Under the pieces are notes generated by a model that saw nothing but the letters and a program-made list of their open reading frames with translations, did no database searches and had not been told where the DNA came from. The position numbers were made by a program, and so were the translations under genes. From NCBI RefSeq assembly GCF_007115105.1, contig NZ_SULJ01000012.1:62001-126000 (forward strand): DNA of 64,000 nucleotides, read 5' to 3'. Shown piece after piece: positions 9,062-33,547 of the stretch; position 1 is the stretch's first letter, and every line of letters begins with the position of its first letter. Origin of the DNA: Clostridium sp. HBUAS56010 (GTDB lineage Bacteria; Bacillota; Clostridia; Lachnospirales; Lachnospiraceae).

Positions 9062-10852
9062 ATGGCAGAGTCAATGTTGGGATTAAAAAGATCCCATAGA
9101 TGCACAGAAGTTACCTCAGCCAATGCAGGCAGTGAAGTGACTGTAATGGGCTGGGTTCAGAAAAGCAGAAATAAAGGTGGAATTATTTTTGTGGATTTAA
9201 GAGACCGTTCCGGGCTTTTACAGATTATTTTTGAAGAAAGCGAATGTGGAACTGAGAACTTTTCAAAAGCAGAAAAGTTAAGAAGTGAATTTGTTGTTGC
9301 AGTGACTGGCATAGTAGAGAATCGGGCAGGCGGTATCAATGAACATCTTGCAACTGGTGCCATTGAGGTGCGGGCAAAGAGTTTAAGAATTCTGTCTGAA
9401 TCTGAGACTCCTCCATTTCCGATTGAAGAAAACAGCAAGACGAAAGAAGAACTTCGTTTAAAATACCGTTATCTGGATTTAAGAAGACCTGACATTCAAA
9501 AGAATATCAAGGTGAGAAGCCAGGTTGCCACTCTTACGAGAGCATTTCTTGCAGAAGAAGGTTTTCTGGAGATTGAGACACCTACTTTGATTAAAAGTAC
9601 ACCGGAAGGCGCCCGTGATTATCTGGTTCCAAGCCGTGTTCATCCAGGTTCTTTTTATGCTCTTCCCCAGTCCCCACAGCTTTACAAACAGTTATTGATG
9701 TGTTCTGGTTATGACCGTTACTTCCAGCTTGCCAGATGTTACCGGGATGAGGATCTGCGGGCAGACAGACAGCCGGAATTCACCCAGATTGATATGGAAC
9801 TTTCTTTTGTTGATGTGGATGATGTATTAGATGTCAACGAAAGGCTTCTGAAAAAGCTATTCAAAGAAATCTGTAATTATGAAATAGACCGTCCTCTGCT
9901 TCGGCTTACATGGAGAGAAGCTATGGATCGTTTTGGTTCCGATAAACCGGATATGCGTTTTGGCATGGAATTAAACGATGTATCTGACGTGGTAAAGAAT
10001 ACAGAATTTGCTGTATTTAAAGGCGCACTGGAGCAGGGCGGTTCCGTACGTGCCATCAATGCAAAAGGACAGGGCTCTATGCCTCGTAAAAAGATTGATG
10101 CACTTGTAGAATATGCAAAAGGCTTTGGAGCAAAAGGGCTGGCTTATCTGGCAATTCAGGAAGATGGAACTTATAAATGTTCTTTTGCAAAATTTATGTC
10201 CGAAGAAGAACTTCATGACCTGGTAAAAGCAATGGCTGGAGAACCAGGAGATCTTCTTTTATTTGCAGCGGACAAGGACAAGGTTGTATTTGATGTGCTG
10301 GGCAATCTGAGATTGGAACTGGCAAGGCAGCTTGATCTTTTAAAGAAAGATGACTTTAAGTTTTTATGGGTAACAGAGTTCCCGCTTTTGGAGTATTCCG
10401 AAGAACAGGGCCGTTACACAGCCATGCATCATCCATTTACCATGCCAATGGAAGAAGACTGGCATCTGATTGACAGTGACCCAGGTGCAGTTCGTGCCAA
10501 AGCATACGACATTGTATTAAATGGTACAGAGCTTGGAGGCGGATCAGTCCGCATCCACCAGGGAGACATTCAGTCTAAGATGTTTGAAGTGCTGGGCTTT
10601 ACAAAAGAGCAGGCGCAGGAACAGTTTGGATTTTTATTGGATGCGTTTAAATACGGAGTACCTCCCCACGCTGGTCTTGCTTATGGTCTGGACCGTGTGG
10701 TAATGCTGATGGTAGGTGCTGACAGCATCAGAGATGTAATGGCATTCCCAAAAGTAAAGGATGCTTCCTGTCTGATGTCAGAAGCCCCCGCTCCGGTTGA
10801 TCCAAAACAGCTTGAAGATCTGGGAATTGGAGTTACACAGGAAGAGGAATAA
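9062..10852 (+). CDS. aspS: Aspartate-tRNA ligase
   Basis: A class II aspartyl-tRNA synthetase of bacterial type, about 596 residues. Domains: N-terminal OB anticodon-binding fold (GWVQKSRNKGGIIFVDLRDR), catalytic core with motif 2 FQLARCYRDEDLRADRQPEFTQ (split over about residues 205-230), the bacteria-specific GAD insertion near 300-410, and motif 3 GLAYGLDRVVML near 540. The start is uncertain: the strongest SD (AGGAGG, 9004-9009) is too far from any in-frame start; I chose the ATG at 9062, with ATG 9074 and GTG 9029 as alternatives. It ends before a clear terminator, closing the housekeeping block. Confidence 0.95.
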   Translation: MAESMLGLKRSHRCTEVTSANAGSEVTVMGWVQKSRNKGGIIFVDLRDRSGLLQIIFEESECGTENFSKAEKLRSEFVVAVTGIVENRAGGINEHLATGAIEVRAKSLRILSESETPPFPIEENSKTKEELRLKYRYLDLRRPDIQKNIKVRSQVATLTRAFLAEEGFLEIETPTLIKSTPEGARDYLVPSRVHPGSFYALPQSPQLYKQLLMCSGYDRYFQLARCYRDEDLRADRQPEFTQIDMELSFVDVDDVLDVNERLLKKLFKEICNYEIDRPLLRLTWREAMDRFGSDKPDMRFGMELNDVSDVVKNTEFAVFKGALEQGGSVRAINAKGQGSMPRKKIDALVEYAKGFGAKGLAYLAIQEDGTYKCSFAKFMSEEELHDLVKAMAGEPGDLLLFAADKDKVVFDVLGNLRLELARQLDLLKKDDFKFLWVTEFPLLEYSEEQGRYTAMHHPFTMPMEEDWHLIDSDPGAVRAKAYDIVLNGTELGGGSVRIHQGDIQSKMFEVLGFTKEQAQEQFGFLLDAFKYGVPPHAGLAYGLDRVVMLMVGADSIRDVMAFPKVKDASCLMSEAPAPVDPKQLEDLGIGVTQEEE

Positions 10853-21483: not shown

Positions 21484-23133
21484 ATGGAGAAAATTAAGGA
21501 ATTACTGAGCAGTATTAACAGCAGAACAAAGAAGATCATGATCGCCGGCATTGTTGGCGTTTGTGTAGTAGCAGGAGCGGTAATCATTGCCTTATCAATG
21601 CGGGAAAAACCCTTTGATGTCATGTTTAACGGTGTGGGCAGTGAAGAAGCAAAACAGATTATAGGAAAGCTGCAGGAAGACGGTATATCCTATCAGTATA
21701 AGAATGGTGACATTTTAGTACCGACGGGGCAGATGGATATTACCAGAGCAAAGCTTGTTTCTGAAGGGTATCCAAAAAGTGGTTTTACATACGATGTATT
21801 TAAGAATAATGTTAATTTAATGACTACAGATTCCGATCGTCAGACGTTCAAACTTTACGATCTGGAGACAAGAGTAGGATCTACCATTCAGCTTTTTGAT
21901 GGTGTAAAAGAAGCATATGTTACGATAGCCCTGGGAGAAACTTCCAAATATGCGCTGTCTGAGGATAGTGAGAAGGAAGCGAGTGCCCAGGCTGTTGTCG
22001 TTATGAAGGATGGAGGTTCTCCCACGCAGGAGCAGGCAAAGTCCATTCAGCTTCTTATTTCCAGAAGTATCCCTGGAATGGTGATTGATAACGTTGCTGT
22101 TTTTGATGGCAATGGACGCGAGGTTTCTGTTAATTCAGAAGAAGAGAATGAAGATAACGGAAAAGCCAGTGAAGAAATCGCAAAGGTCATTGAGGATCAG
22201 ATATCAGCAAAGGTCATCAATGTTCTGGGACCTGTATATGGGAATGGAAATGTACGGGTTTCTGCAAAGTGTACGGTTAATATGGATAAGCTGGTCCGGG
22301 AGAGCATTGTATACAATACTCCTGACAGAATTAATGACCAGGATAAGACGGGCATTATATCAGAAGAAAACATTGGCAGGGAGTTTTCCGGCGACAGGCA
22401 GACGGCGTCTGGTGTGGCGGGATCAGAGGCAAATGCTGATATTCCGGAATATAATGCAGGGGAAACGGGAACGGGAGCAGATGGTTCCTACGCTTCCAGT
22501 AGTCTGAACAGAAAGTATCTTATTAACCAGATTAAGGAACAAGGTCAGGTGAATCCGGGAACTCTGGAGAACCTTACAGTTTCTGTCGTGGTCAACGGAA
22601 CTGATTTCGGTACATTGAATGCAGATGATATTCGGAATCTTGCGGGGAATGCTGCGGGGATTGCCCAGGCGGACAGAGCAGAAAAGATTACTGCAGTTGC
22701 AGCACCTTTCTATACCGTTGATGTTCCAGGAGAACCGGATGCTCCGGTTGAAGCAGCAACAGGAGGGCTTATCATAAACCAGTGGATACTTATTGCAGCA
22801 GCCGTTGGCGTATTATTGCTTGTGCTGATTATTGTATTGGCGATCAGATACAGGAATAAGAAAAAGGCAATGATTGCAGATACAGAGGAAAGTCAGGAAG
22901 ATGTTCCGGTTGTTCCTGAGATTCCAGAGGAAGAGGAAGAAGAGATAGAAGAACCAGAAGAGGAAGAAGAGCCAGTGGAAGAGGAGGAAGAGGAACCGGA
23001 GATATTTGTTCCAGAAGTGGACCGGGGTGCAGAGCTGCGTGAGAATGTCCGGGATTTTGCGGAACAGAATCCGGAGATTTCAGCTCAGTTGCTGAAAACA
23101 TGGTTGAACGGAGGGGAAAACAATGACAACTAA
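21484..23133 (+). CDS. fliF: Flagellar MS-ring protein FliF
   Basis: A 549-residue MS-ring protein with an N-terminal TM (about 20-40), ring-building motifs in the periplasmic-equivalent region (IQLLISRSIPGM, DQISAKVINVLGPVYG), and a second TM at about 433-453. Residues about 476-508 are almost entirely Glu with Pro and Val, an unusually long acidic linker before the C-terminal FliG-binding segment (RENVRDFAEQNPEISAQLLKTWL, about 520-543). The ribosome site is poor. It overlaps fliG by 11 bases, consistent with fixed FliF:FliG stoichiometry. Confidence 0.95.
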   Translation: MEKIKELLSSINSRTKKIMIAGIVGVCVVAGAVIIALSMREKPFDVMFNGVGSEEAKQIIGKLQEDGISYQYKNGDILVPTGQMDITRAKLVSEGYPKSGFTYDVFKNNVNLMTTDSDRQTFKLYDLETRVGSTIQLFDGVKEAYVTIALGETSKYALSEDSEKEASAQAVVVMKDGGSPTQEQAKSIQLLISRSIPGMVIDNVAVFDGNGREVSVNSEEENEDNGKASEEIAKVIEDQISAKVINVLGPVYGNGNVRVSAKCTVNMDKLVRESIVYNTPDRINDQDKTGIISEENIGREFSGDRQTASGVAGSEANADIPEYNAGETGTGADGSYASSSLNRKYLINQIKEQGQVNPGTLENLTVSVVVNGTDFGTLNADDIRNLAGNAAGIAQADRAEKITAVAAPFYTVDVPGEPDAPVEAATGGLIINQWILIAAAVGVLLLVLIIVLAIRYRNKKKAMIADTEESQEDVPVVPEIPEEEEEEIEEPEEEEEPVEEEEEEPEIFVPEVDRGAELRENVRDFAEQNPEISAQLLKTWLNGGENNDN

Positions 23134-24127
23134 CCTGAGACCAGAGCAGAAAGCAGCAACTGTTATTGTTTCGCTTGGTGTTGAAAAGGCATCTAAGATC
23201 TATAAATATCTTTCAGAAGAAGAGATTGAGAAACTGACAGTTGAAGTTGCTAAACTTGGGCATATAGAGGCGAAAACCACAGAAGAAGTGTTGGACGATT
23301 TTTATAAGACCTGTCTGACCCAGAAGGTGGTTACAGACGGAGGACTGGAATATGCCAAAACAGTTCTGGAGAAAGCGTTTGGTGAAAGTACAGCCAGCAA
23401 TCTGCTTCAGAAAGTGAACCAGTCCTTAAAGTCCAGATCCTTTGGATTTATCCGAAACAGCGATTCCAAGAATCTTTTCTCGATTTTACAGCATGAAAGA
23501 GCGCAGACCATAGCGCTGGTTCTTTCCTATACAACAGAAGATATGACAGCGGAGCTGATCTCAGCCCTTTCCCCTGAAAAACGTCTCAAAGTAGTTGAGG
23601 CGATTGCGAGAATGGAAAGTGCATCTCCGGAAGGAATAAAGATTGTAGAAGATGAGATTAAAAGAAAGTTCTCGGGAATTATTACAACAGATTATACAAC
23701 GGTCGGCGGTATCGATTATATTGCAAACGTTATGAACCGTATGGACAGAGGCAACGAAAAACTTATCTTCGAGGAATTGGGAAAGAAAGATGCAGACCTG
23801 GCAGATACCATCCGCAAGAAGATGTTCGTATTCGAAGATATTGTTACCATGGACAATCGCTCCATTCAGCGTTTTATCCGCGAGTGCGATTTGAAAGATA
23901 TGGTTTATGCTCTTAAAGGAGCCAATGAGCAGATTGCCGATGCTATTTTCGCCAACATGTCCAGCCGTATGAAGGAAAGCGTTCAGTCTGATATGGAAGT
24001 TACTGTAAACGTTCGTGTCAAGGATGTCCAGGAAGCACAGCAGAGAATCGTTGCTGCCATCAGACGTTTGGAAGAAGAAGGTGAGCTGATCATCAGCAAG
24101 GGTGGAAAGGATGATATCATTGCCTAA
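23123..24127 (+). CDS. fliG: Flagellar motor switch protein FliG
   Basis: A 334-residue switch-complex protein: N-terminal FliF-binding domain, middle and C-terminal ARM domains, and the torque helix. The C-terminal charged helix region reads DIVTMDNRSIQRFIREC; the usual motif has two Asp before Arg-Ser, and here the second is Asn. The FliM-contact motif usually written EHPQ reads ERAQ (in QHERAQTIALVLS, about residue 115). Both departures are seen directly; their effect is not known. Start: ATG with GGAGGGG upstream, inside the end of fliF. Confidence 0.95.
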   Translation: MTTNLRPEQKAATVIVSLGVEKASKIYKYLSEEEIEKLTVEVAKLGHIEAKTTEEVLDDFYKTCLTQKVVTDGGLEYAKTVLEKAFGESTASNLLQKVNQSLKSRSFGFIRNSDSKNLFSILQHERAQTIALVLSYTTEDMTAELISALSPEKRLKVVEAIARMESASPEGIKIVEDEIKRKFSGIITTDYTTVGGIDYIANVMNRMDRGNEKLIFEELGKKDADLADTIRKKMFVFEDIVTMDNRSIQRFIRECDLKDMVYALKGANEQIADAIFANMSSRMKESVQSDMEVTVNVRVKDVQEAQQRIVAAIRRLEEEGELIISKGGKDDIIA

Positions 24128-28555: not shown

Positions 28556-28939
28556 ATGATAAGCATGATCAGTAAGTTGAATCAATATGAAGATGTCAGA
28601 CAGTTAAAAATGCGAAGTTCTGCAGCGGCATCAGAATGTGGCAGTAACTTTAGTGATTTGCTTCATAGCCGCATTAATCAGAAGGAAGACCTTCAGTTTT
28701 CCCGTCATGCGGCAGAGCGGGCAAAGGAAAGAGGGATTGATATGTCTGATTCATTTTTAAGTGACTTACAATCCGCTGTTGAAAAGGCCCGGACAAAAGG
28801 AGCGAAAGATGTGGTGATTATCAGCGAGAGAGGGGCATTTATTGTAAATGTACCCAATAATACAGTGGTAACTACCATATCTGGGAATGAAATGAAAGAT
28901 AATATTTTTACTAAAATTGACAGTGCCGTTTTATTATAG
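28556..28939 (+). CDS. TIGR02530-type flagellar operon protein
   Basis: A 127-residue protein found between flgD and flgE in Firmicute flagellar operons. The family core is clear: FSRHAAERAKERGIDMS followed by LQSAVEKARTKGAKDVVII and a final TVVTTISGNEMKDNIFTKID. Its exact role is not established; position suggests help in hook assembly or export. Ribosome site GACAGGCG is weak. Confidence 0.85.
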   Translation: MISMISKLNQYEDVRQLKMRSSAAASECGSNFSDLLHSRINQKEDLQFSRHAAERAKERGIDMSDSFLSDLQSAVEKARTKGAKDVVIISERGAFIVNVPNNTVVTTISGNEMKDNIFTKIDSAVLL

Positions 28940-30935: not shown

Positions 30936-31730
30936 ATGGATGTATCTTTGATTGTAGGGTGGATATTGGGGGCTGTTCTGATTGTTTTGGGGATTGGAAT
31001 AGAAAGAATTGTTAATTTTGTTGATATACCCAGTATTATCATCGTCATCGGAGGAACGGCGGCGGCACTTATTGCCAGTTATCCATTCAGAATGCTTGCT
31101 CAGATGCCAAAACATATTGGAATTATGCTGGGGAACCAGAAATACGATGCAGGTGACGTAATCTACAAATTTGCTGATATGGCACAGACCGCAAGGAAAA
31201 GAGGGTTGCTGGTATTAGAGGAGCAGGCGGTTGCAATCGAGGACCCATTTTTAAAACAGAGTGTTATGCTGATTGTGGATGCAATTGATGGGGAACGTAT
31301 CCGGGAGATTCTGGAGGGAGAAGTAAACGCATTGATTGACCGTCATGATCAGCAGATTAGTATGTATGAACGATGTACCTCACTTGCCCCGGCTTTTGGA
31401 CTGGCAGGAACCCTGGTTGGTTTAGTCAATATGTTAAAAGGTATTAATTTTGAACAGGGACCTATGGGAATCGGTGCAGATATGTCTCTGGCGCTTGTTG
31501 CTACCTTTTACGGCTGTATTCTTGCTCATCTGGTGTTTGCCCCTATGGCAAGAAAACTAAAGATCCGTAATGAAGAAGAGATTCTCTACCGGCGTATTAT
31601 TATTGAAGGTGTATTATCCGTACAGGCTGGCGATAATCCCAAGTTTTTGATAGAAAAGCTTTTTTCATACTTATCCCAGAGTCAGCAGAAGAAATTTATG
31701 AACAACAGAGGTGCCGGAGGATATGATTAA
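30936..31730 (+). CDS. motA: Flagellar motor stator protein MotA
   Basis: A 264-residue four-TM stator subunit. Conserved parts are present: the cytoplasmic loop with ARKRGLLVLEEQ (the Arg and Glu that face FliG), TM3 with APAFGLAGTLVGLVNML including the essential Pro, and TM4 with LALVATFYGCILAHLVFAP with the second Pro. MotA therefore looks functional. It overlaps motB. TGGGAGG site before the ATG. Confidence 0.94.
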   Translation: MDVSLIVGWILGAVLIVLGIGIERIVNFVDIPSIIIVIGGTAAALIASYPFRMLAQMPKHIGIMLGNQKYDAGDVIYKFADMAQTARKRGLLVLEEQAVAIEDPFLKQSVMLIVDAIDGERIREILEGEVNALIDRHDQQISMYERCTSLAPAFGLAGTLVGLVNMLKGINFEQGPMGIGADMSLALVATFYGCILAHLVFAPMARKLKIRNEEEILYRRIIIEGVLSVQAGDNPKFLIEKLFSYLSQSQQKKFMNNRGAGGYD

Positions 31731-32505
31731 AAAACATAAAAAGCAGGAAGAATCAGGAGGGCTGCCGGATACATATGGTGGAATCGTTACGTTGCTTTTA
31801 TGCTTTTTTATCCTGATATATTCAGTTTCTTATGTTGACCAGAATAAATGGAAGATGCTGGTTGGAAACTTAAATCCCGCAGCAGTGGAGAGCAGCAGTG
31901 CCGATGTACAATCATTGAGTGGAGAGGAAGAGGAATCTTCTGCATACGCTGTTTCTGAAAATGGTGATATTACAGATTTTAATCAGCTCTATCCGGCTTT
32001 AAAGCAGGTGATTGAAGCGCGGAATATGCAGGAGGGTGTGGAATCTGTTTCTGGTAATGGATTCACATTTCTTTCGTTTCGTAATTCTGTGTTTTTTGAT
32101 GGGGAAGGCTCGGTTCTCCGGCAGGAAGGAAAGGAATTTCTGGACCAGATTGCTGGTACATTAACAAGGGCAGACCGCACCATAAAAGAAGTGAAGGTTT
32201 TAAGTCATACTTCTCAGAAAGATCCGGGAAAACCTAATAATATCCGCAATGACCGAATGCTGTCGGCACAGCGATCTGCGGAACTGGTTATTTACCTTCA
32301 AAGCAGGAATGCAGTTTCTCCAGAAAAGCTGGTAAGCCTGAGTTTTGGTCAGTACCGTCCCATAGCACCAGTTGATTCAGAGGCTGGAAAAGAGAAAAAT
32401 GGCAGGCTGGAAGTCCTTATCACCCAGAGTGATACAGCAGAGAATTCTCTGGAAGAATATTACAACCAGATTTATCATCAGAGTCAGTTAGAAACGGACA
32501 ATTAA
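31723..32505 (+). CDS. motB: MotB-type stator protein lacking the canonical membrane Asp
   Basis: A 260-residue MotB: a short basic cytoplasmic tail, one TM (about 19-40), a linker, and an OmpA-like peptidoglycan domain (about 120-245). In MotB the start of the TM reads Tyr-x-Asp-hydrophobic-x-Thr-Leu; here it is TYGGIVTLLLCFF, so the ion-binding Asp is Gly20 (codon GGA at 31780). The nearest acid is Asp16, one helical turn earlier. In the outer domain the usual GHTD reads SHTS and NRR reads NGR. All other family features are kept. ATG 31723 overlaps motA by eight bases; a GTG at 31711 is an alternative. Confidence 0.9.
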   Translation: MIKKHKKQEESGGLPDTYGGIVTLLLCFFILIYSVSYVDQNKWKMLVGNLNPAAVESSSADVQSLSGEEEESSAYAVSENGDITDFNQLYPALKQVIEARNMQEGVESVSGNGFTFLSFRNSVFFDGEGSVLRQEGKEFLDQIAGTLTRADRTIKEVKVLSHTSQKDPGKPNNIRNDRMLSAQRSAELVIYLQSRNAVSPEKLVSLSFGQYRPIAPVDSEAGKEKNGRLEVLITQSDTAENSLEEYYNQIYHQSQLETDN

Positions 32506-32527
32506 ATAAAAAGCGGGAGTGAAACAG

Positions 32528-33547
32528 ATGGCTGAAGTATTATCCCAAAGTCAAATTGATGCACTGCTCAATTCCCTGCAGGGAACTGATGAGCCTATCG
32601 ATGAGATTGATAAAAAAGGAAATGAAACAAAATATAGGAAGTATGATTTTTACAGTCCTAAAAAGTTTACAAAAGATAAACTGAAGATATTAAAGAGTAT
32701 ATTTGATAATTACTCCAGAATTGCCGGTTCGCAGATCAACGGGCTATTTCGTACTTCAAGTGAATTATCCGTTATTACGGTAGAGGAACAACGGTATTAT
32801 GAATTTGGGAATGCCCTGAATGATAATGACGTTTTGACAATTGTCGATGTAACCATGCCTAATGTTGCCCAGGGACCGCCTCTTTTAATCAATGCCAGTA
32901 TGAGCCTGATGTTAAGTCTGATGGACCGCATGCTGGGGGGGGTTGGGGAAGAAGCAGATGTTGATGAATATTATACTTACACAGAGATCGAAATGGCTCT
33001 GTACCGGAGAGTGATTCAGTATCTGATTGGAGCATTAAAGGATTCCTGGTCGACTTATATTGACTTAAATTTCGAACTGAACAGACTGGAGGAAAATCCG
33101 GGAATGTTTCAGGAGATTGGTGTAGATGAGACCATTGTAATTGTCGTAATTGATGTGGAATTAAAGGAATGTACGGGCAGGCTGAATGTATGTATTCCAG
33201 GAACCTTGCTTTCCAATATTTTCTCCATCATGGACAAGAGAAAACACAGTGCCATGGGCGATGAATTTAAGAGCCAGGATAACAGGCAGGATATCTTTAA
33301 CAGCATCAAAGGATCGGATCTTCTGGTTCGTGCCAAAGTTGGAGATGCCATGATCACACTTGATGATATTTATAATCTTCATGTGGGAGATGTGGTCAAT
33401 CTAAACACACCAAAGGATTCTGACATAGAAATTTATGTTGAAGAACAGCCATGGTTTAAAGGCCAGTTGGGTGTTCATAAACGGAATGTTGCGGTGCAGA
33501 TTGATGAGTTAGCTGACAATGGAAATTACCAGACCGGTGAAAACTGA
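32528..33547 (+). CDS. fliM: Flagellar motor switch protein FliM
   Basis: A 339-residue switch protein. The N-terminal CheY-P-binding peptide is VLSQSQIDALLNSL (about residues 4-17). The CheC-like middle domain contains DRMLGGVGEEAD near residue 135, where the FliG-contact motif is usually GGPG; the variable position is Val here. The C-terminal FliN-like domain reads VGDAMITLDDIYNLHVGDVV near 275. The ATG at 32528 follows GGGAG at 10 bases; the GTG at 32519 is too close. fliL, often between motB and fliM, is not present. Confidence 0.95.
   Translation: MAEVLSQSQIDALLNSLQGTDEPIDEIDKKGNETKYRKYDFYSPKKFTKDKLKILKSIFDNYSRIAGSQINGLFRTSSELSVITVEEQRYYEFGNALNDNDVLTIVDVTMPNVAQGPPLLINASMSLMLSLMDRMLGGVGEEADVDEYYTYTEIEMALYRRVIQYLIGALKDSWSTYIDLNFELNRLEENPGMFQEIGVDETIVIVVIDVELKECTGRLNVCIPGTLLSNIFSIMDKRKHSAMGDEFKSQDNRQDIFNSIKGSDLLVRAKVGDAMITLDDIYNLHVGDVVNLNTPKDSDIEIYVEEQPWFKGQLGVHKRNVAVQIDELADNGNYQTGEN

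Follow-up and report, generated by a model that had tools for sequence, protein, structure and literature searches.

The window (the whole stretch of 64,000 nucleotides from Clostridium sp. HBUAS56010 that was analysed) contains a flagellar operon in which Pfam identifies fliG, fliI, fliK, flgD, a Flagellar_put gene, a flgE-like gene, motA, motB, fliM, a flgC-like rod gene, a fliY-like gene, and fliO (Table 1). Further operon genes (cheY, fliP, etc.) were named by reading the translations. As in the other genomes compared, motA and motB are adjacent and on one strand; in the window they overlap by 8 bases, and in the 21 other genomes listed a gap of 38–84 bases separates them. The flgE-like gene, by eye, has a long Ala/Lys/Glu-rich, coiled-coil-like middle, and it ranks with the operon's less conserved genes (48–63% identity in the genus genomes compared).

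Table 1. Positions in the window of the genes, motifs, and residues discussed
Feature	Positions	Strand	Basis or remark
fliG, rotor partner of stators	23123..24127	+	PF01706, PF14842, PF14841
Flagellar_put gene, operon control gene	28556-28939		Pfam
flgE-like hook gene, 536 aa	29025-30635		
motA, partner of motB	30936..31730	+	PF01618, 1.3e-26
MotA cytoplasmic loop 84-98, expected to meet FliG	31185..31229	+	Charges kept; loop role from part of PMC7564593
MotA Leu156-Ala157 (PomA M155-I156 positions)	31401..31406	+	Changed only in the Asp-less clade
MotA Ala189 (PomA T185 position)	31500..31502	+	Thr in 16/16 Asp-bearing copies compared
motB, Asp-less, flagellar operon, 260 aa	31723..32505	+	ORF and domains; orthologues aligned
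MotB codon 16, GAT (Asp16), one helical turn before codon 20	31768..31770	+	Genus-wide
MotB codon 20, GGA (Gly), ion-binding Asp column	31780..31782	+	Alignment to solved chains
MotB 161-164, SHTS, peptidoglycan-binding motif	32203..32214	+	GHTS in other aligned genus copies
MotB 226-228, NGR, second peptidoglycan-binding motif	32398..32406	+	NRR in other aligned copies
fliM, next gene, no fliL between	32519..33547	+	PF02154, PF01052

The window MotB has the two domains of a stator B subunit, namely MotB_plug (PF13677, 40.5 bits, 2.1e-10, cut-off 24) and a C-terminal OmpA-like domain (PF00691, 38.9 bits, 1.2e-9, cut-off 27.2), shares 58–68% identity with its orthologues in the genus, and stands in the same gene order beside motA. 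It lacks the transmembrane ion-binding Asp of such subunits: residues 17–26 read TYGGIVTLLL, and in an alignment to the solved chains 6ysf (which reads TFSD), 8ucs, and 6ysl, Gly20 falls on the Asp column, as expected from the original prediction that Tyr-x-Asp is replaced here. In NCBIfam the pair matches MotP and MotS best, in each case under the curated cut-off. A structure model of MotB (built from the window protein and 12 of 14 loci of named records that contain this MotB; mean pLDDT 64.7) is good in the periplasmic domain only and uninformative on the ion site; the best match of its predicted fold is the periplasmic domain of Bacillus subtilis MotS, with MotB and PomB domains also matched.

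Loss of the aspartate in one clade

A search of 41 genomes found MotB orthologues in 24 of the 25 genomes of the genus, apparently Lacrimispora; in the remaining one (G005, 82% complete) only another MotB type was found. Asp is present in 18 of the 24 orthologues (TYGD) and absent from six, being replaced by Gly in four (TYGG in G000, G017, G022, and G024) and by Val in two (TYGV in G007 and G011), with the codons GGA, GGT, and GTT. In a tree built from 10 other flagellar proteins (2980 columns, rooted on an outgroup, G040, that has only three of the ten and a long branch), these six genomes form a single clade with a support of 96, sister to the rest of the genus (82). The outgroup MotB has Asp, and the simplest history is a single loss followed by further change.

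Six genomes, two residues, and three codons rule out a sequencing or assembly error; a single read error had already been thought unlikely from the GGA codon. A strain-specific pseudogene, for which close relatives with a normal Asp would have spoken, is rejected on the same evidence: the nearest relatives are themselves Asp-less and their frames are open, that of G022 ending about five codons early. Loss of flagella is likewise rejected as a reason, with a Flagellin_N match in all 25 genomes of the genus (weak in G005; the best match in the window genome stops at a contig end) and fliG and fliM of full length. FliL was considered as a missing partner. The family (PF03748) was found in none of the 25 genus genomes, four control genomes gave a match, and its absence throughout the genus is thus not tied to the loss of Asp.

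The peptidoglycan-binding motifs of MotB are GHTD and NRR. The original prediction was right that the window protein departs from both, with SHTS and NGR; GHTS in place of GHTD, however, is found genus-wide, including in Asp-bearing copies, and only the changes from G to S and from NRR to NGR are confined to the window among the copies aligned (as is W14L in the orthologue alignment). GHTS and NRR occur both in the rest of the clade and in Asp-bearing relatives, so these motifs do not separate the clade.

The 58 MotB_plug matches in the 25 genus genomes comprise 24 operon copies and 34 others; all were read, and Asp is present in 34 of the 34 non-operon copies. In the order, 189 of 295 genomes surveyed had a match, and 60 segments were sampled, mostly one per genus, from the better-scoring matches listed; all 60 have Asp (45 read by script and 15 by eye). 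Because absence of the Asp lowers the score, the reading was extended to seven multi-copy genomes and to four whose best score was weak, which yielded 15 further segments with Asp and two fragments (L113 and L115) that end before the column. Outside the genus, then, all 75 segments that could be read in the order have Asp, in a non-random sample among the matches listed, and no other Asp-less MotB was seen in the 11 weak-scoring or multi-copy genomes, where L113 and L115 stop short of the column. Six orthologues from other families (L025–L030) have Asp too. A passage of PMC10374538 calls the stator Asp universally conserved among stator families, and the listings and opening lines of abstracts in an open-access library gave no natural MotB without it.

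Other stators, selection, and a possible decay

The window genome has two further motAB pairs (L031 and L032), both with Asp, so that the search for a second motAB proposed with the original prediction was answered twice over. The MotB of L031 reads PYSDLMTLLL, GHTDN, and NRR, and that of L032 TYSDMITLLL, GNTAD, and NRR. By eye, the surrounding genes (19 kb read around each) look like metabolic or housekeeping ones. By the PomA residues, L031 is of the H+ type (Ala at the T158 and T185 positions), and L032 has Ala at T185 only. As a separate observation, the L032 MotB (9445–10143, minus strand) has GNTAD in place of GHTD while keeping its Asp and NRR.

All five near-complete Asp-less genomes have both extra pair types, with Asp in 10 of 10, and three motA each; in G011 (67% complete) only the Asp-less pair was found. 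Four Asp-bearing genomes (G002, G010, G012, and G013) have the operon pair only. Two Asp-bearing operon stators look broken, by a stop in motB in G003 (L085) and a short motA in G004 (L078); these genomes are tree neighbours that both have other stators, and an assembly error is possible. In G023 (L077) other genes are short as well, and a faulty assembly probably explains its short motA. Redundancy may mean that the operon stator can be spared, but the Asp-less clade has retained its pair.

It is possible, if rather unlikely, that the operon pair is redundant and slowly decaying: it would have lost its function given the two other stators, and its frames would persist through their place inside a needed operon, the shortness of the time passed, or the harm done by a broken pair. 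Branch codon models were fitted with our own script to 14 of the 25 genomes, including four of the six Asp-less ones; the neutral branch leading to G000 approaches saturation, a regional fit with a negative likelihood ratio (MotA 1–60, G000 class) is poorly optimised, and pairwise counts were made as a guard against such weaknesses. For MotB, dN/dS is 0.170 on Asp-less branches and 0.106 on the others (2dL 9.08), and fixing it at 1 costs a 2dL of 153; for MotA the values are 0.050 and 0.071 (2dL 3.37), and neutrality costs a 2dL of 400. With dN/dS well under 1 and neutrality strongly rejected, motA and motB of the Asp-less clade are under purifying selection.

The 1.6-fold rise in MotB is what one might expect of decay, and it is concentrated in residues 86–260 (0.158 in Asp-less branches versus 0.087 in others, 2dL 9.1), the only regional result to stand after correction for multiple tests. 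Relaxation, where seen, is therefore periplasmic and spares the membrane core: MotB 1–50 (0.082 versus 0.139, 2dL 1.3) and TM3–TM4 of MotA (146–205; 0.022 versus 0.064, 2dL 4.8) show none, and the rest of MotA gave 0.067 versus 0.142 (1–60, 2dL 4.2), 0.047 versus 0.028 (61–145, 2dL 1.3), and 0.090 versus 0.059 (206–264, 2dL 1.3). The Flagellar_put gene rises likewise in the clade (0.134 versus 0.076, 2dL 4.54), so a modest rise is not peculiar to MotB. The other control genes gave 0.085 versus 0.065 for fliM (2dL 2.54), 0.048 versus 0.072 for fliR (4.11), 0.088 versus 0.130 for flgD (3.20), and 0.032 versus 0.018 for cheY (1.62).

Pairwise counts within the clade gave MotB values of 0.148 (G022–G024, dS 0.12), 0.179 (G007–G024, dS 0.55), and 0.195 (G007–G022), together with 0.282 (G007–G011, 4 and 4 changes) and 0 (G017–G024, 0 and 4), both from small counts; eight Asp-bearing pairs fall at 0.042–0.160, and flgD (0.06–0.44) and flgE (0.06–0.28) of the same genomes span the MotB values. 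MotA lies at 0.038–0.042 in four clade pairs, with one replacement and no synonymous change between G017 and G024. Against decay, then, dN/dS stays far under 1 in MotB and in MotA is as low as elsewhere, recent pairs included, and the Asp-less state is older than the split of three lineages. Decay would agree with the window-only W14L, SHTS, and NGR, with the early stop in G022, with the broken look of the Asp-bearing stators in G003 and G004, and with the lesser retention in MotB of positions invariant among Asp-bearing copies: 105 of 163 are kept in all six Asp-less copies, compared with 139 of 174 in MotA. (These comparisons used 17 Asp-bearing copies for MotB, the broken one of G003 being left out, and 16 for MotA, without the short ones of G004 and G023.)

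When the stem of the clade is set apart, MotA has a dN/dS of 0.24 on the stem and 0.05 within the clade (2dL 6.41), a result that depends on the rooting; MotB shows no such difference (2dL 0.38) and fliM a weaker one (2dL 3.74). In the MotA protein tree, too, the stem is long (0.46, versus 0.05 in the ten-protein tree), and together these indicate fast change of MotA around the loss of Asp and tight constraint since.

MotA, Asp16, and the path of the ion

The original prediction took the neighbouring MotA to be normal; this did not quite hold, with clade-specific changes at the positions of PomA M155, I156, and T185. Aligned to PomA, MotA M156 corresponds to M155 and T189 to T185, and the changes of the clade include M156L, I157A/V, V185L/T, I188L/V, and T189A/S. 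The T185 position is Ala in five and Ser in one of the Asp-less copies and Thr in 16 of 16 Asp-bearing ones, so that of the three Thr typical of Na+-type A subunits (T158, T185, and T186), all present in the 16 Asp-bearing copies, the clade keeps the first and last and has lost T185 in six of six. According to part of PMC10374538, a PomA T185A mutant is non-motile and an M155L mutant retains 80% of motility. Among the positions kept in the clade are MotA Pro152 (E. coli P173), Thr159, and Thr190, and MotB Thr17 (PomB T21). The charges that face FliG are also in place: the loop reads ARKRGLL(V/I)LEEQA in the six Asp-less copies and ARKKGLLVLEEQA in the 16 Asp-bearing ones.

Conduction of ions through a site shifted to Asp16, the only acid close to the lost one, was the other possibility raised by the original prediction. 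The unit would then be a working stator, perhaps with the help of a water molecule, and would still make torque. Asp16 is indeed there, in six of six Asp-less copies, in which residues 14 and 15 vary; it is equally fixed in 17 of 17 Asp-bearing copies compared in the genus, the broken one of G003 again being left out, and, among the matches listed, it occurs in 5 of the 60 sampled MotB of other families, all of family f17, and in G040 of the same family. Its conservation is therefore not tied to the loss: it was present beforehand, and Asp16 is rejected as a new compensating residue. A new acid in the membrane segments of MotA is rejected as a replacement too, none being found in the clade, where the clade-only acids (at 102, 249, 263, and 264) all lie outside those segments.

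A shifted site is nevertheless conceivable, since Asp16, one turn toward the cytoplasm, aligns with PomB G20; in a passage of PMC10374538, G20 (by its carbonyl, at Na+ site 1) and T21 are Na+ ligands. The retention of Thr17, Pro152, Thr159, and Thr190 within a strongly constrained membrane core is in keeping with it, and so is the extra carboxylate of E. coli MotA P173D, which restores proton flow in the D32N channel (part of PMC4030992); Pro152 being still Pro in the clade, that type of bypass is absent here. The loss of Thr at the T185 position speaks against it. The MotB of E. coli, Borrelia, and Salmonella is not known to have an acid four residues before the ion-binding Asp. Their D-to-N mutants nonetheless count against a shifted site as well: neither E. 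coli D32N nor Borrelia D24N is motile (sections of PMC6663468), nor is Salmonella D33N (a section of PMC7564593). With no positive support for it, we regard a site moved to Asp16 as unlikely. That a natural stator drives rotation from an ion gradient although its transmembrane Asp is gone, by Asp16 or any other route, we consider slightly more doubtful still; if true, it would break the central rule of 5:2 rotary motors.

A stator that may no longer conduct

The Asp-less copy probably no longer powers the motor, and our tentative preference is for a non-conducting stator that would sit at the rotor beside working stators and act as a brake or limit the torque. The operon pair would be of Na+-type ancestry, its ion pathway dismantled in the ancestor of one clade by loss of the MotB carboxylate (Asp to Gly or Val) and of one hydroxyl of the MotA Na+ site. 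Kept by selection, the pair would be expressed and assemble as a MotA5–MotB2 unit unable to pump ions, occupy some of the stator places round the rotor beside the two Asp-bearing stators, and lower or tune the torque in the manner of a brake, clutch, or idler. A torque limiter of this kind fits best with the kept rotor-facing loop, the constrained membrane core, the lack of a replacement acid, the degraded Na+ site, and the two other stators taken together. The inactive or regulatory stator with another MotAB elsewhere, also foreseen by the original prediction, gains from the other pairs and from purifying selection; the inactivity itself is what we infer.

Several observations pull the other way. 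The faster MotB, mainly in its periplasmic part, and the peptidoglycan-motif changes of the window fit decay, and the strong constraint may come from a need to avoid the damage that a jammed or leaky unit would do. A dead channel would have no need of Asp16, Thr17, and MotA Pro152 beside the ion path, yet all three remain fixed. Mutants made at the Asp offer both precedent and objection. The Pseudomonas MotB-D30A strain swims less than the deletion, possibly as a dominant negative through competition with MotCD (part of PMC12288467), and Borrelia D24N is still found in motors, with about 7 stators per motor on average compared with about 16, a retention that the authors suggest is linked to the spirochete collar (part of PMC6663468). 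E. coli D32A, by contrast, loses motor occupancy and Salmonella D33N dissociates faster, as cited in a passage of PMC12288467.

A non-motor or mixed role, in which MotA or MotB of this pair works with subunits of the other stators or serves as peptidoglycan-bound support or as a surface sensor, is very unlikely. MotA is held more tightly than MotB, as such a role might predict, though likewise in Asp-bearing relatives, and in Pseudomonas surface signalling is changed in mutants of the stator Asp (part of PMC12288467); on the other side, motA and motB are adjacent, on one strand, and of matching type (MotP and MotS), with no sign of cross-pairing.

If a non-conducting stator is set beside known systems, the nearest are MotP/MotS of Bacillus and PomA/PomB of Vibrio, to which the pair is tied by its best NCBIfam matches (below cut-offs), by the MotS-like predicted fold, and by Asp-bearing orthologues that keep the Asp and the three PomA-type Thr (16 of 16); unlike those systems, the clade has neither the Asp of the B subunit nor, at the T185 position, the Thr of the A subunit. 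In the multi-stator motors of B. subtilis and P. aeruginosa every stator type known is ion-driven. The likeness to them is that several stator types are encoded in one genome; B. subtilis combines MotAB and MotPS, and P. aeruginosa MotAB and MotCD, on one rotor (part of PMC5380961), and the Pseudomonas stators are thought to compete for places (part of PMC12288467). The laboratory mutants E. coli D32N/A, Salmonella D33N, Borrelia D24N, and Pseudomonas D30A lost the same residue, and in the parts of the sources cited above some of them are still found at the motor and others act as dominant negatives; unlike these made, motility-impairing changes, the loss in the clade is a natural one, shared throughout, in a pair that selection keeps alongside other stators. 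A clade in which the Asp is lost, the MotA side has changed, and both genes are under selection is a natural experiment: either the carboxylate is able to shift, or a stator that does not conduct has a use as a built-in brake or idler.

Two further kinds of MotB-like protein came up in the order. A third MotB type, WQDSYSDLMTDLLAIF, carries an additional Asp one turn beyond the canonical residue and occurs in two families of the order (L089 in G008, L092 in G014, L195 in G006, and L190 in G069). Three MotB-like proteins with weak MotB_plug scores (L114 in G313, L187 in G203, and L188 in G236) read WQSYSDMMAALLLxF and perhaps belong to a non-flagellar 5:2 motor.
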